Shown in pieces: positions 23,486 to 63,298 of a stretch of DNA of 64,000 nucleotides. The position numbers and the translations under genes are program-made. Below the pieces are notes generated by a model that had not been told where the DNA came from, searched no databases, and saw only the letters and a list, made by a program, of their open reading frames with translations. Source of the DNA: Chloroflexota bacterium (lineage in GTDB: Bacteria > Chloroflexota > Dehalococcoidia > UBA2979); assembly GCA_947472995.1 (NCBI GenBank), contig CANJBO010000001.1, forward strand, positions 62,001-126,000. Reading direction: 5' to 3'. Numbering within the stretch: position 1 is the stretch's first letter; each line of letters starts with the position of its first letter.

Positions 23486-25606
23486 GTGACGCAGCACGCC
23501 TTCCGGCCGGCCAGGGCAGTCCTCCCCGCGATCTCGACGATGATCGCCGCCGTGGCGCTCGCGCTCACGCTGCTCCTCGTGCCGCCGCCGCACGCCGAGG
23601 CCGCCGCGATGGTGGTGACGACGAACGCCGACAACGTGACGATCGACGCGCAGTGCTCGCTGCGCGAGGCGATGACGAACGCCGGCGACAACGCCGCGAC
23701 GAACGTCGACTGTCCTGCGGGTGGGGCGACGGGCGACACGATCACCTTCGCCGTCGGTCTCGCGGGACAGACGATCACGCTGGTCTCGGAACTCCCGGAC
23801 GTGAACCGCCGGATCGGTGATTCCGTGACGATCGACGGCACCGGGCGAAACGTCACGATCAGCGGAGGCTCGACCGTCGGGATCCTGACAGTCAACGGCG
23901 CCGGCATCGGAGGCGCCACCGCCGAGTTGCGGGGGCTGACGATCCGTGACGGTCGAGGAGTGAACGCCGGCGCGATCGACAACCCGGACGGCGCGCTGAC
24001 GCTCGTCGACACCACGTTCATTAACAACACCCTGGGCGTCGGCACGACCGGCGGCGCCATCCGCTCACTTGGCGTGGCGAGCCTGACGGTCCGGAACAGC
24101 ACGTTCACGGGGAACGCCGCGCTCTCCGGTGGCGCGGGTGGCGCGATCGTGATCACGGGCGGCACCGCAACGATCACCAACAGCACGTTCAGCGGAAACA
24201 CGAGTCCGAACGGGATCGGCGGCGCCATCGCCGTGGTCAATAGCACGGTCGACATCGTGAACTCGACGATCTCCGGGAACAACGCCAACGACGGAGGCGG
24301 ACTGTTCCAGGGGTCCGGAACCGTCACGCTGTCGAACACGATCGTCGCGAACAACACCACCTTCGGCATCAATCCCGACTGCTCCGGCACCGTGACGAAC
24401 AACAACGTCAACCTGATCGAGAGCCTCATCGGCTGCACCGTCAACGGCACCGGGACCACGCTCAACGTCGACCCGGCGCTCGCCGCGCTCGCGAGCAACG
24501 GCGGGCCGGTGCAGACCTTCGCGCTCAACGTCGGCAGTCCCGCGCTCGGCGCGGGGAATGCGGGCGTGCGCTCGGCGCTGGCGGGTGGCGCCCTCGATGC
24601 GCGCGGCATCGCGCGGCCGCAGGGCACCGGCTGCGACCTCGGCGCGTACGAGGCGCTCCAGCTGTCGGTCGCGCCGGTCTCGCAGGCGGAGGGCAACGGC
24701 GCCACCGTGTTCAACGTCCCGGTGACGCTGTCGCAGGCGCTCCCCGCCGGGTTCCCGAGCGTGACCGTGCAGTACGACACCTCGAACGGGACGGCGATCG
24801 CACCGGCGGACTACACGGCGGTCGTCGCCGGGACCGTCACGTTCACCGCAGGCGGATCGGCGACGGTGAACGCCACAGTGCCGGTGATCGGCAACACCGC
24901 CATCGGCGCCCCGAAGACATTTACGGTGACGCTGAGCAACGCCGTCCGCGCGGTGCTCGGCACCAGCAGCGCGATCGGCACGATCACGGACGACGACGTG
25001 CTGGAAGTGCCACCCGCCGAGGCGCCCCAGCCGTACATCGAGGCGCCCGCGAGCAGCACGGCGACCGCCGGCGCGCCGTTCACCCTCAGCCCGCGCGCGG
25101 GCGACGGTGCCGGGCCGTACCGCTGGTCGGTGATCGGTGGGGCGCTGCCGCCGGGCCTCGCGATCGACGCAGCCACCGGCGCGATCGGCGGGACGGCCAC
25201 GACACCCGGCACGTACACCGCGACGCTCCGCGCGCTCGACAGCCTCGGCATCAACGCCGACCTCGTCGTGACGATCATGGTCGGGGCGGGCGTGGGCACG
25301 CCGCCGACCTCGCCGCCTGCGGCCTTGCCGTTGCCGACCCCGCCCGCGTCCATGCCCACCGGGACGTTCGCCGTGACGCCGATCTTCAACGGCAGCGGGA
25401 TCGCCTCGGCGGTGTTCGCGGGCGGCACGAGCGCGCAGATCGAGGCGGCCGTGCTCGCCGCCGGCGGCAGCGGCGCGTGGGTACAGGACGCGCGAGGCGT
25501 GTTCCACCTGCTCGTCGCCGGCAGCCCCGCGTTCCTGCAGGCACCGTTCCTCGAGGCGTTCCCGGGCGGCCTCGCCGGGCCGGTGGCGGTGTTCGTGATC
25601 CGCTAG
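23486..25606 (+). CDS. secreted CSLREA / parallel beta-helix surface protein with Calx-beta, Ig-like and shared C-terminal modules
   Basis: A 706-residue exported protein of unknown function. From a GTG start it has a signal peptide (hydrophobic residues ~20-33, cleavage near HAEAAA). A CSLREA motif is at 57-62. A Ser/Thr/Asn-rich repeat region (GNTSPNGIGGAI, SNTIVANNT) is typical of a right-handed beta-helix and runs to ~375. A Calx-beta-like domain with SNGTAIAPADY and ending in GTITDDD follows, then a He_PIG-type Ig domain (LPPGLAIDAATGAIGGT). The final ~80 residues (from 25361) match the ends of two other secreted proteins here. It probably binds or decorates the cell surface. Confidence 0.82.
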   Translation: MTQHAFRPARAVLPAISTMIAAVALALTLLLVPPPHAEAAAMVVTTNADNVTIDAQCSLREAMTNAGDNAATNVDCPAGGATGDTITFAVGLAGQTITLVSELPDVNRRIGDSVTIDGTGRNVTISGGSTVGILTVNGAGIGGATAELRGLTIRDGRGVNAGAIDNPDGALTLVDTTFINNTLGVGTTGGAIRSLGVASLTVRNSTFTGNAALSGGAGGAIVITGGTATITNSTFSGNTSPNGIGGAIAVVNSTVDIVNSTISGNNANDGGGLFQGSGTVTLSNTIVANNTTFGINPDCSGTVTNNNVNLIESLIGCTVNGTGTTLNVDPALAALASNGGPVQTFALNVGSPALGAGNAGVRSALAGGALDARGIARPQGTGCDLGAYEALQLSVAPVSQAEGNGATVFNVPVTLSQALPAGFPSVTVQYDTSNGTAIAPADYTAVVAGTVTFTAGGSATVNATVPVIGNTAIGAPKTFTVTLSNAVRAVLGTSSAIGTITDDDVLEVPPAEAPQPYIEAPASSTATAGAPFTLSPRAGDGAGPYRWSVIGGALPPGLAIDAATGAIGGTATTPGTYTATLRALDSLGINADLVVTIMVGAGVGTPPTSPPAALPLPTPPASMPTGTFAVTPIFNGSGIASAVFAGGTSAQIEAAVLAAGGSGAWVQDARGVFHLLVAGSPAFLQAPFLEAFPGGLAGPVAVFVIR

Positions 25607-58178: not shown

Positions 58179-59348
58179 CTAGGTCGCGCTGCCGATCAAC
58201 GTCACGGCCACGGGGCCGCCAAACGGGACCGCGAACCGGGCACGGAACGCGTCCGCCATGAAGCTCGGGCCACCGACGATCAGCAGCTGGAACCCGCCGT
58301 CGGCGTCCTGCACCCACACGCCGGTCGCGCGCGCGTCGGTCGACGCCGTGATCAGCTGGTCGGCCGTCCCACCGAGGAACACCACGGACGCCTGCCCGTT
58401 CGTCGCGCCGAACACCGGCGGCGCCGCGAACGCGCCTCGAGGCGGCGTCACGACGACGGGCGCGGCAGCCGGGGCAGCGGGCGGCGGGGTGTAGCCCGAG
58501 GCGGCAACGCTGCCGGAGCCGGGCGCGAGGTACTCGGCGGCGACCCACCCGGTCTGCGCCCCGGAGGAGACCTGCACCCACCGGTAGCCGTCCGAGCTCG
58601 TGCCGAGCTGCGTCACGGTCACGGTCGACCCGGTCGGCAGGCAGCCGACCACCGACCCGCCGAGGCCGCCGGTGCTGCGCATGCGGAGGCAGTCGCCGTC
58701 CGCTGCGATCGTCACGCGCGCGCCGACCGCGGGAAGCGTGCCGGTCGCGCCGAAGGTCGGGGTCGTCACGACGGGCGGGGCCTGCACCGGCGGCGTCTGC
58801 CCGGGCGGCACGGGGTTCGGATTCCCGGCGGCGTCGGTGAAGCGGTAGACCCGCACCACGAGCCCGGGGTAGCGCGCCACCAGCTCGGCCGGCTTGTACT
58901 GGTCACGGACCCGGACGATGCCGTCGTAGTTCGAGTTCGAGTCGATCACGCGGAACACGCCGCTGCCGAGGTTGTCGATCACGATCGCGGTGTGGAGGCC
59001 GGGGTAGTCGGCGTTCGCGACGGTGATCGCGGGGTTCGCGATCTGGATGATGTCGCCGTCGCGCGCGGTCATCAGGGGCACCTCGACGCCGCCGGCCTGG
59101 AGGTAGCCGAGGTTGTAGTCGTAACCGATGGTGCGGTTCACCGCGGCCTGCACGACGGTCTTCACCCACGGGAAGCACTCGCCGCGCTGCTGGCTGAGCG
59201 ACGCGAGCGCCGTGCGCACGATCGGTCCGTAGTTCGCCGCGACGACGTTCGAGTCGGCACTCGCCGGTGCCGGCCGCACGAGCGTGAGCGCCAGCACTGC
59301 CAGCAGCACCGGTACCGCGATCATGCGCATCGTCGTGCGTCGAGTCAT
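58179..59348 (-). CDS. secreted CHAP-like/SH3 protein with the shared C-terminal module
   Basis: A 389-residue exported protein. It has a signal peptide (MIAVPVLLAVLALTLVRPAPASA). A CHAP-like domain follows, with GECFPWVKTVVQAAVN (Cys) and GLHTAIVIDNL (His). An SH3b-like domain has CLRMRSTGGLGG and WVQVSSGAQTGWVAAEYL. A Pro/Ala linker leads to an ~85-residue terminal module found also in two other secreted proteins here. It is probably a wall-acting amidase or binding protein. ATG 59348 was chosen because a promoter-like pair lies at 59359-59387; upstream in-frame starts (59360, 59396) fall inside it. Confidence 0.82.
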   Translation of the reverse strand: MTRRTTMRMIAVPVLLAVLALTLVRPAPASADSNVVAANYGPIVRTALASLSQQRGECFPWVKTVVQAAVNRTIGYDYNLGYLQAGGVEVPLMTARDGDIIQIANPAITVANADYPGLHTAIVIDNLGSGVFRVIDSNSNYDGIVRVRDQYKPAELVARYPGLVVRVYRFTDAAGNPNPVPPGQTPPVQAPPVVTTPTFGATGTLPAVGARVTIAADGDCLRMRSTGGLGGSVVGCLPTGSTVTVTQLGTSSDGYRWVQVSSGAQTGWVAAEYLAPGSGSVAASGYTPPPAAPAAAPVVVTPPRGAFAAPPVFGATNGQASVVFLGGTADQLITASTDARATGVWVQDADGGFQLLIVGGPSFMADAFRARFAVPFGGPVAVTLIGSAT

Positions 59349-59358
59349 TCTTCGTCCC

Positions 59359-59387
59359 ATCACAGCTATCGAGGTTACCTGTGACAA
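59359..59387 (-). promoter_or_regulatory. candidate promoter of the CHAP-like/SH3 gene
   Basis: On the minus strand TTGTCA (59387-59382) and TGTGAT (59364-59359) have a 17-bp spacer. Transcription would start about 5-7 bases before ATG 59348, giving a very short leader. Confidence 0.45.
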
Positions 59388-59652
59388 CGCGTGCACGCAC
59401 CATCACGTTGCCCTCGCAGCGGTTACAAAATGGGACTCGCATCGCCCACGGTACGAGTGATCGAACCTGCAACACGATGCGGCAGCGACGACCTCGTTGA
59501 CGCGTTGTTCGATGACTGCGGACACCTGTATGCCTAATCCACGCGTATGCAGACACGATCGAAGTACGAGATTGCGCGGTGATCGTGGTACACGGACGCA
59601 TGGACGAGATCACGCACCCGTGAACCGTGGCGGCGCGTCGATCAGGGTGTGT
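59388..59652. other. intergenic region, noticeably less GC-rich
   Basis: This stretch between two leftward genes has fewer G/C runs than the rest of the window. It has no convincing reading frame. No tRNA cloverleaf, hairpin array or repeat shared with other regions was seen. It may hold upstream control sites for the CHAP-like gene or the 3' untranslated end of the aldo/keto reductase. Confidence 0.4.
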
Positions 59653-60631: not shown

Positions 60632-63298
60632 GTGCGGATGCGGCCCGGCGGGAACGTCCTCAGCATCCTCGTCACGTTCGGACTCGCGCTGTGCGGTCTC
60701 CTCGGCGCGCCGCGTGCCGCGCACGCACAGACGCCCACCAGCAGCGCGAGCGCGGTGTTCGCGCGCGTCGCGCCCTCGGTGCCGGTGATCGAGACGCCCG
60801 ACGGCCACGGCACGGGCTTCCTCATCGATCCGACCCACGTGATGACGGACGCGCACGTGATCGGGAACCTCGACACGGTGAGCGTGCGGTTCCCGGACGG
60901 CGCGACGTTCACTGCGAAGGTGGTCGTGCGCGATCGCCTGATCGACATGGCCGTGCTCGAGATCTCGACGCCGCGTGTCGTCACCACAAACGTCGCGCCG
61001 CCCCCCACCGAGATCGGCGCTGACCTGTACGTCCTCGGGTACCCCGGCCGGACGAGCAGCTCGAAGCAGCCCATCTTCAGCCGCGGGCTGCTGTCGCAGG
61101 TGCTGGCGTGGGACGACGCGCCGATGACGTACCTCCGCACCGACGCGAGCGGCGAGCCCGGCGTCAGCGGCGGACCGATCCTCGATGCGAGCGGCAACGT
61201 GGTCGGCGTCGTGCAGTTCCGCTCGTCGCAGGGGGGCTACCTCATCGGCGCCGCCGCCGCCGACATGCTGTCGCGCGCGCAGCGCTTCATGCGCGGCGAG
61301 AGCGTCGACGGCCTCGCGAGCCGCCCGCTGACCGGCACCGTCGGCCTCACCTTCGACATCGATCTCCGCGGCGGCGCGGAGCCCGAGGAGTCGTTCTTCG
61401 TCACACCGACCTCGGACGTGCTGGCGCGGCTCACGCTCGACTCGACGAGGTTCACCGGCACCGTCTCGATGACGGTGATCGAGGCGGGCGGCGACTGGAT
61501 CGCCAGCGGCGCGCTGAGCGGGACGAAGCGGACCGTCCCGGTCGCCGCGCCGTTGAAGGCCGGCAAGACCTACTGGATCAACGTGTCGTCGGACAACCCC
61601 GCACGGCTGAGCCTCAGGTCGAGCACGCCGATCGCGCGGTTCCTCGACGGCGACGACGTGCGCACGAGCGGCGGCCGCCACGTCGGGATGATGGACCACC
61701 CGAGCGACGTCGACTGCCGCCCGGTCACGCTGCGCGCGGGGCAGGTGATCACGGCGCGCGCCGAGTCGGTCGCGTTCGACCCGCTGCTCTACGTCGTCTC
61801 GCCCGGCGGCGTCGTGATGGCGGCCGAGGTCGAGAACATCGACGGCATCCGCGGCAGCAATGCGCGCGTGACGACGACGACCTCCTCCGACGGCGACTTC
61901 GTCGTCTGCGTCGGCGAGGCCGTGCCCTCGCCCGTCACCGGCGCCTACGTCCTGACCGTCGAGGCGAGCCCGGCGCCGCCCGTCGCCTCGAACACCGGTG
62001 GGTTCACCCTGAGCACCGCGCGACTCGCCCTCCCGCGCACGAACAACGCGACGGTCGCCCTCCGCGACGGCCGCATCATGGTGATCGGCGGCCTCGACGC
62101 GACGGGCCGGCGCCTCGACACCGCCGAGGTCTACGACCCCGCGACCGGCGCGGTGTCGACGGTGAGCGCACGCGACGTGGTCGCGCGACGCGATGTCACG
62201 GCCACGCTGCTGAAGGACGGGCGCGTGCTGGTGATCGGCGGCGTCTCCGAGGCCGGCGTCTCCGCAGTCGCCTCCGTTTACGACCCCACCGATGGCACGT
62301 GGATCACCGTCGGCTCGCTCGGCGAGGCGCGCGTGGGCGGCGAGGCGATCCTGCTCGACGACGGGCGCGTGCTCGTCGTCACCGGCTTCGGCAAGCTCGC
62401 CCCGCTCGCGACGGCCGAGCTGTTCGACCCGCGCACCGGTCAGTTCGCCCCGACCGGATCGATGGCCAGCGCGCGCAGCAGCCTCATCGCCTCGCGGCTC
62501 CTCGACGGTCGCGTGCTGATCGCGGGTGGGTTCGACGCGGAGAGCAACATCCTCGACACCGCGGAGATCTACGACCCGAAGAGCGGACGCTTCCGCGAGA
62601 CCGGCCGGCTGGCGCAGGCGCGGTACAACCACCACTCCACCACGCTGCCCAACGGCCGCGTGCTGATCACCGGCGGCGCGTCGAAGGACGGCGACCTCGG
62701 CGACGCGGAGCTGTACGACCCCGCGACCGGCGCGTTCAGCACCACCGGATCGATGCGCTTCCCGCGGCAAGCGCACTCGGCGCACCTGCTGCCCGACGGC
62801 CGTGTCCTGATCGCCAGCGGCATCTACCGCCTCGGCCCCGAGCGCGAGATCGTCGTGGAAGTCGGTGCGACCGAGGTCTACGACCCGGCGACCGGTCGCT
62901 TCGCGCTCGCCGGCGGCATGCGCGTGCCGCGCCAGCAGTCCGGGGCATCGCTCCCCGACGGCACCACCGTCTTCCTCGGCGGCACGACGGAGGTCGCGGC
63001 ACTCGACTCGATCGAGGTGTTCCGGCCGGGCGTCGCAGCGGCCGCGGGGAACGGCACGTTCCTCGCCGCGCCGGTGTTCAGCACGAGCGGGATCGCGCTG
63101 ACGATCTTCGGCGGCGGCAGCGTCGACCAGCTCGTCGCCACCGCGCGCACGGCGGGCGCCGAGGGCGTCTGGGTGCAGGACGGCGCCGGCATGCTGCGGC
63201 TGCTGATCGTCAACGGCCCCGCGTTCCTGGGCGACGTCTTCCGCAGTGCGTTCGCCGAGGGCCTGCGCGCCTCGACCCCCGTCACGCTCACGCGCTAG
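60632..63298 (+). CDS. secreted trypsin-like protease / Kelch-propeller protein with the shared C-terminal module
   Basis: An 888-residue exported protein. A signal peptide (NVLSILVTFGLALCGLLGAPRAAHA) is followed by a trypsin/DegP-like protease with His75 (TDAHVIG), Asp105 (LIDMAVLE) and Ser179 (GVSGGPILD). A PPC-like beta domain occupies about residues 225-340, with a further beta segment to ~450. About six or seven Kelch-type repeats (DGRVLVIGG, TAEVYDPATG) form a likely propeller at about 455-800. The last ~80 residues (from 63053) match two other secreted proteins here. GTG 60632 has GAGGGAG upstream. The propeller may present or bind the protease's substrate. Confidence 0.85.
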   Translation: MRMRPGGNVLSILVTFGLALCGLLGAPRAAHAQTPTSSASAVFARVAPSVPVIETPDGHGTGFLIDPTHVMTDAHVIGNLDTVSVRFPDGATFTAKVVVRDRLIDMAVLEISTPRVVTTNVAPPPTEIGADLYVLGYPGRTSSSKQPIFSRGLLSQVLAWDDAPMTYLRTDASGEPGVSGGPILDASGNVVGVVQFRSSQGGYLIGAAAADMLSRAQRFMRGESVDGLASRPLTGTVGLTFDIDLRGGAEPEESFFVTPTSDVLARLTLDSTRFTGTVSMTVIEAGGDWIASGALSGTKRTVPVAAPLKAGKTYWINVSSDNPARLSLRSSTPIARFLDGDDVRTSGGRHVGMMDHPSDVDCRPVTLRAGQVITARAESVAFDPLLYVVSPGGVVMAAEVENIDGIRGSNARVTTTTSSDGDFVVCVGEAVPSPVTGAYVLTVEASPAPPVASNTGGFTLSTARLALPRTNNATVALRDGRIMVIGGLDATGRRLDTAEVYDPATGAVSTVSARDVVARRDVTATLLKDGRVLVIGGVSEAGVSAVASVYDPTDGTWITVGSLGEARVGGEAILLDDGRVLVVTGFGKLAPLATAELFDPRTGQFAPTGSMASARSSLIASRLLDGRVLIAGGFDAESNILDTAEIYDPKSGRFRETGRLAQARYNHHSTTLPNGRVLITGGASKDGDLGDAELYDPATGAFSTTGSMRFPRQAHSAHLLPDGRVLIASGIYRLGPEREIVVEVGATEVYDPATGRFALAGGMRVPRQQSGASLPDGTTVFLGGTTEVAALDSIEVFRPGVAAAAGNGTFLAAPVFSTSGIALTIFGGGSVDQLVATARTAGAEGVWVQDGAGMLRLLIVNGPAFLGDVFRSAFAEGLRASTPVTLTR

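Follow-up and report, generated by a model that had tools for sequence, protein, structure and literature searches.

Three exported proteins encoded in a 64,000-nucleotide stretch of a Chloroflexota genome (contig CANJBO010000001.1; hereafter the window) end in similar tails on otherwise unrelated bodies, which raises the question of what this tail is and what it does for the proteins that carry it. The first copy (63053..63295, plus strand, stop codon 63296-63298) is the last part of a secreted protein with Trypsin_2 and Kelch domains, whose gene (60632..63298, plus strand) is counted from its probable start, at a Sec-type signal peptide, and has an ortholog with a matching tail in a congener (L066, L172). 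The second copy (58182..58436, minus strand, stop codon 58179-58181) closes a secreted SH3_3 protein encoded at 58179..59396 on the minus strand, with an alternative ATG start near 59360. The third (25361..25603, plus strand, stop codon 25604-25606) ends a secreted beta-helix-like/Calx-beta/He_PIG protein; its gene is taken as 23486..25606 on the plus strand from a probable signal-peptide start, and the open frame extends further upstream of 23486, where it looks non-coding. The initial annotation had placed the tails at 63053-63298, 25361-25606 and 58179-58437. Translation agrees with it for both plus-strand tails, and the minus-strand copy exists as well, but the interval given for it lies one base out of frame.

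That annotation also described a tail common to three signal-peptide proteins whose remaining parts are unrelated, and this was borne out. The three tails align end to end over about 81 columns, 24 of which are invariant, with 43-48% identity to the first copy; a signal-peptide-like start is present in all three carriers; and Pfam finds different domains in the rest of each (Trypsin_2 and Kelch, Calx-beta and He_PIG, or SH3_3). The motif pattern it proposed is a fair description of the consensus at genus level (F-x-GG-[TS]-x2-Q-[IL], WVQD, LL-[IV], P-[AS]-F), while neither Pfam nor PDB sequences back its "CHAP-like" label for the minus-strand protein. This second carrier consists of a signal peptide, an uncharacterised Cys/His-containing domain, SH3_3, a Pro/Ala linker and the tail domain. 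Its N-terminal part matched neither Pfam, up to E=5, nor any PDB sequence; by eye, a GECxxWV ... HTAIV pattern resembles NlpC/CHAP amidases, and this part may be a divergent hydrolase.

The window copies belong to a large family within their own genome (1.78 Mb, 73% complete). With the copy at 58182 as query, a search of this genome picked up both remaining copies of the window (E=5e-17 and 1e-13) and 17 more; a 20-sequence profile raised the count to 22 copies, of which 20 scored E about 1e-25 or better. Copies within one genome are about 43% identical on average. Conservation across 121 copies is strongest at G13, V18, GG21-22, L27, W/Y40, G46, P56, F58, F63, F67 and G70, and aromatic residues are conserved at F/W/Y19, W/Y40, F/W/Y48, F58 and F/W63. 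The claim that no named domain has this pattern stood up to Pfam, NCBIfam, PHROGs and PDB-sequence searches, none of which gave a usable match: scans of Pfam-A, NCBIfam and PHROGs with single copies and with 20-23 copies produced no hit better than E 0.03-0.05, with each such hit confined to a single member, and the domain profile, searched against PDB sequences, gave no credible match. Matches to PRD1_P5_C, choice_anch_M and an antibody light chain were weak, partial or limited to one member and were set aside.

Direct reading of 20 copies suggested a compact alpha/beta domain whose final strand ends in -TLxR in most, and structure prediction gave a consistent picture. AlphaFold2 models of two different copies, built from an 8-sequence alignment, reached pLDDT values of 96.3 and 96.7 and pTM values of 0.85-0.86, with strands at domain residues 14-19, 38-42, 48-52 and 75-80 and helices at 24-33 and 57-66. 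The module is thus confidently predicted to be a compact, independently folding domain of about 75-80 residues with the order beta-alpha-beta-beta-alpha-beta. A Foldseek search of the PDB yielded nothing at E<=0.001 (best 0.13-0.29), with TM-scores of at most 0.45 among the hits listed, and a viral structure library held no significant neighbour (best 0.12). Foldseek scores for small domains are poor, so that a new fold is a possibility raised by the models and not a result.

The domain occurs in three families of one class and is used heavily in one genus. A broad profile (A6) detects it in 37 of the 44 genomes of the host's own family and in 15 of its 17 genera, and congener genomes hold 6-31 copies each. 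A draw across the class gave matches in 48 of 393 genomes, all within the three families f1, f29 and f22, and a phylum-wide draw gave 3 matching genomes among 400; scoring in draws of this size was limited to about 13-14 candidates per genome, and weak matches may be missed. A genome-contig search with a narrow alignment returned 5 loci. Viral scans contained neither this form nor the related form described below, and plasmids contained no copy. One copy 62% identical to the window form (L064, JAUSDY010000071.1) lies in a MAG labelled Acidobacteriota; it is the single copy in a 5.4-Mb assembly, on a 9-kb contig, and is probably a misbinned contig or a transfer.

We examined the carriers using the copies of the own genome, those of one congener (G001) and about 28 copies from other genera. 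When one simple signal-peptide rule was applied to carriers and control open reading frames (ORFs) alike, a signal-peptide-like start was present in 60 of the 68 domain ORFs with intact 5' ends (about 88%) versus 44 of 304 controls (14%), and in most of the remaining 8 a signal-peptide-like segment could be seen by eye. Judged by their sequences, the carriers would thus be exported, as a class of surface-retention modules requires. Pfam partners in the own genome are, besides the Trypsin_2 + Kelch and Calx-beta + He_PIG of the window, GSDH, TIG repeats (2 proteins), matrixin (2), SH3_3 (2), M23 with PKD, RCC1, a cadherin-like domain, CAP, and S11 with SH3_3; several further carriers in this genome matched no Pfam domain. 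A GH10 enzyme is a carrier outside it. All identified partners are extracellular in type, and those related to the wall are SH3_3, M23 and the D-Ala-D-Ala carboxypeptidase S11. Linkers rich in Pro, Ala and Thr often join the domain to its carrier, and small exported proteins of about 115-160 aa consist of little beyond it.

Position within the carrier is less uniform than the window suggests. In the own genome 16 copies end at most one residue from the stop codon and one is cut by a contig end, four follow directly after the signal peptide (in the GSDH protein, the CAP protein and two small proteins), and one lies between SH3_3 and peptidase S11. In G001, 18 of 25 copies end at the stop, and over the two genomes of the genus 34 of 46 end within one residue of it. 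Copies in related genera are mostly internal or N-terminal, and tandem pairs are common at the ends of long repeat proteins. A strict sorting tag at the extreme C-terminus, as a reading of these tails, was rejected on the four copies that follow a signal peptide, the internal one and the many internal copies of other genera. The C-terminal tag of the initial annotation therefore survives in part: an unnamed, lineage-restricted domain of exported proteins is upheld, but strict C-terminality is not, since N-terminal and internal copies exist. Among the observations it had named as counting against a tag, internal positions were indeed found; an established family was not, and the carriers are almost always exported. 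That the domain serves the cell surface remains plausible.

Several carriers deserve description in their own right. The order SH3_3, domain, S11 recurs in other genera, where exported D-Ala-D-Ala carboxypeptidases (L038, L057, L061, L187) carry the domain ahead of the catalytic part, mostly after SH3_3; this arrangement, found in several genera of the family, may be an ancestral context of the domain. A group of exported proteins from G010 and G018 (L048-L051, L053), with open frames of about 500-2700 aa, combines propeller-like repeats and a cadherin-like domain with two tandem copies at the C-terminal end that share a conserved leading Cys.

The domain was compared with its carriers in 13 ortholog pairs, reciprocal best between the own genome and G001, with bodies taken without the domain. 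In 12 of them the domain shows higher conservation than the body, and in 12 the copy closest to it in the other genome belongs to the ortholog. Since the domain outconserves the body and tracks the ortholog, it is kept by selection; it is old in its carriers and more strongly constrained than those carriers. That a single tail had recently been shuffled among genes was rejected, as copies follow their carriers between species.

A weak match (L071 in G390) led us to a second domain, here called GWNL, with the pattern PGxNLxxWPG...VYxWDxxTxxWxRYIPGxPAFVN...GxxYW. It has no Pfam or NCBIfam entry, and its form was found in 17 of 201 genomes of the phylum. GWNL copies (L071, L086-L089, L092-L121) are widespread and often stand in tandem at the ends of large exported Chloroflexota proteins. 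Like the window form, they are exported and often C-terminal and tandem (CAP-linker-GWNL in L071; tandem pairs in L088, L097, L098 and L110), and they keep the same motif order, namely a hydrophobic strand, a helix, V[WY]xxD, [FW]xxYIxGxPxFVN, a helix and a strand; the window form differs in lacking the "GWN" start and the "GYW" end strand. When profiles of 121 window-type and 37 GWNL-type copies were compared, the two aligned end to end with motif order kept and scored above all 150 column-shuffled controls (local 23.7 versus a maximum of 19.5; global 19.2 versus 14.5). By hhalign the two profiles gave P values of 1e-4 to 1e-3 at a low probability of 39-56% (39% local and 7% global in the 121-versus-37 run), and a genus-only window profile gave no support. 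Some sequences bridge the two: L071 and both domains of L090 score on both profiles, and both forms occur in family f22. The L090 protein (G000:C11, about 30.1-30.5 kb) is an exported protein of 442 aa with a signal peptide, SH3_3, two divergent domains and about 100 further residues; by their sequences these two domains appear to be intermediates that bridge the forms. We consider a common origin of the two domains likely on this evidence, and the window domain is probably a divergent branch of GWNL. This relation gives it no name, because GWNL itself has no Pfam or NCBIfam entry.

What, then, might such a domain do? Our preferred reading, to which we give an even chance, is that it is a non-covalent retention module that holds secreted proteins at the cell surface, with the ligand inferred. 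After Sec export the domain would fold outside the cell and bind an envelope ligand common to all carriers, be it peptidoglycan, another wall polymer or an S-layer, and would thereby keep enzymes and repeat proteins surface-bound on a monoderm cell, which lacks an outer membrane to hold them. We favour retention because of the high copy number, the unrelated partners, the free position, the tandem use, the association with wall enzymes, the selection on the domain and the probably monoderm envelope. Peptidoglycan-bearing orders of Dehalococcoidia have been described as monoderm, and Tepidiforma has peptidoglycan and an S-layer (PMC10284905); for exactly this lineage we infer the monoderm envelope, as we do the ligand and the retention role. 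Genes for PBP transpeptidases (PF00905) are present in all 44 family genomes, and for want of discrimination wall genes were dropped as a predictor of the domain. Wall genes without a copy of the domain occur in genera g5 and g9 of the same family, so such a wall does not generally require it.

Against retention, many carriers have no wall-related part, a pattern that would fit binding of an external ligand or docking between proteins as well. The domain could be a carbohydrate- or substrate-binding module that brings secreted enzymes to extracellular polymers such as algal or plant polysaccharide or particles, and not to the cell's own envelope. The GH10 glycosidase, glucose/sorbosone dehydrogenase, matrixins and trypsin-like proteases among the carriers would suit this role, as would the conserved aromatic positions, which are usual in sugar binding; its presence on D-Ala-D-Ala carboxypeptidases, M23 proteins and pure repeat proteins, in tandem at the ends of long ones, and the lack of a match to any Pfam CBM family speak the other way, and we regard this role as rather unlikely. 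Alternatively, copies might associate, with one another or with a single surface scaffold, into a multi-enzyme or S-layer-like complex at the surface. Such self-assembly would account for the very large number of copies in a genome, all sharing a fold, and for tandem pairs, and the small proteins that are nearly all domain could be its partners, but the copies of one genome are only about 43% identical on average and no split into two types, receptor and ligand, is evident; we think it unlikely.

The remaining alternatives fare worse. A C-terminal sorting or secretion signal like LPXTG, PEP-CTERM or the type IX CTDs, which a transpeptidase or translocon would read and might cleave, would explain why paralogous copies sit on unrelated carriers and why so many in the genus (34 of 46) stop within a residue of the end. 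The proteins already bear a full Sec signal, however, and the domain has a compact predicted fold without short motif, hydrophobic segment or basic tail; its N-terminal, internal and tandem copies point to a portable extracellular domain instead of a cleavable signal. This explanation is highly improbable, and cleavage in particular is nearly excluded. Terminal placement and compactness might also fit a stabilising cap or protease shield that binds no ligand and aids folding or survival of secreted proteins, yet its conservation, higher than that of the body in 12 of the 13 pairs of orthologs, and the conserved loop glycines and aromatics suggest a specific surface and not a generic cap; we regard this role as improbable too. 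Returning to non-covalent retention, we put forward tentatively a broader version of it: a new fold family that serves as a general docking module for the exported proteome of peptidoglycan-bearing relatives of Dehalococcoides, with one envelope ligand and 20-30 clients per 2-Mb genome, derived from a wider undescribed Chloroflexota GWNL superfamily.

To our knowledge, little has been described of the way in which monoderm Chloroflexota retain enzymes and adhesins at the cell surface. With one domain shared by more than 20 exported proteins in a genome, many "hypothetical secreted proteins" across three families can be annotated, and uncultured lineages gain a defined set of surface proteins together with a testable ligand. 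As the predicted fold has no significant neighbour among solved structures, an experimental structure would be of interest in its own right.

As a kind, portable surface-binding domains are familiar; what is new here is an unnamed family with an unmatched predicted fold. The LPXTG, PEP-CTERM and type IX CTD tails likewise put paralogous tails on unrelated exported proteins, but the window domain also occurs at N-terminal and internal positions and has no transmembrane segment or basic tail. A parallel in build is SPOR (PF05036), a small module on secreted wall proteins that is alike in length and in its beta-alpha-beta-beta-alpha-beta order of elements. This order recalls both SPOR and ferredoxin-like folds, although neither stood out among the Foldseek hits listed; with both domain models Foldseek gave no significant match, and no SPOR entry was among those hits. 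Identity with SPOR was rejected, as the tails have no Pfam match and PF05036 is absent from the own genome while it was found in six control genomes. SPOR binds denuded peptidoglycan glycan (PMC6895207). In mode of use the domain is probably like SLH, LysM, SH3_3, CWB2, GW and other surface-retention modules: no Pfam or NCBIfam model matches it, but it co-occurs with SH3_3 in several carriers and, like them, would act as a portable anchor, non-covalent and free to stand at either end of an exported protein.
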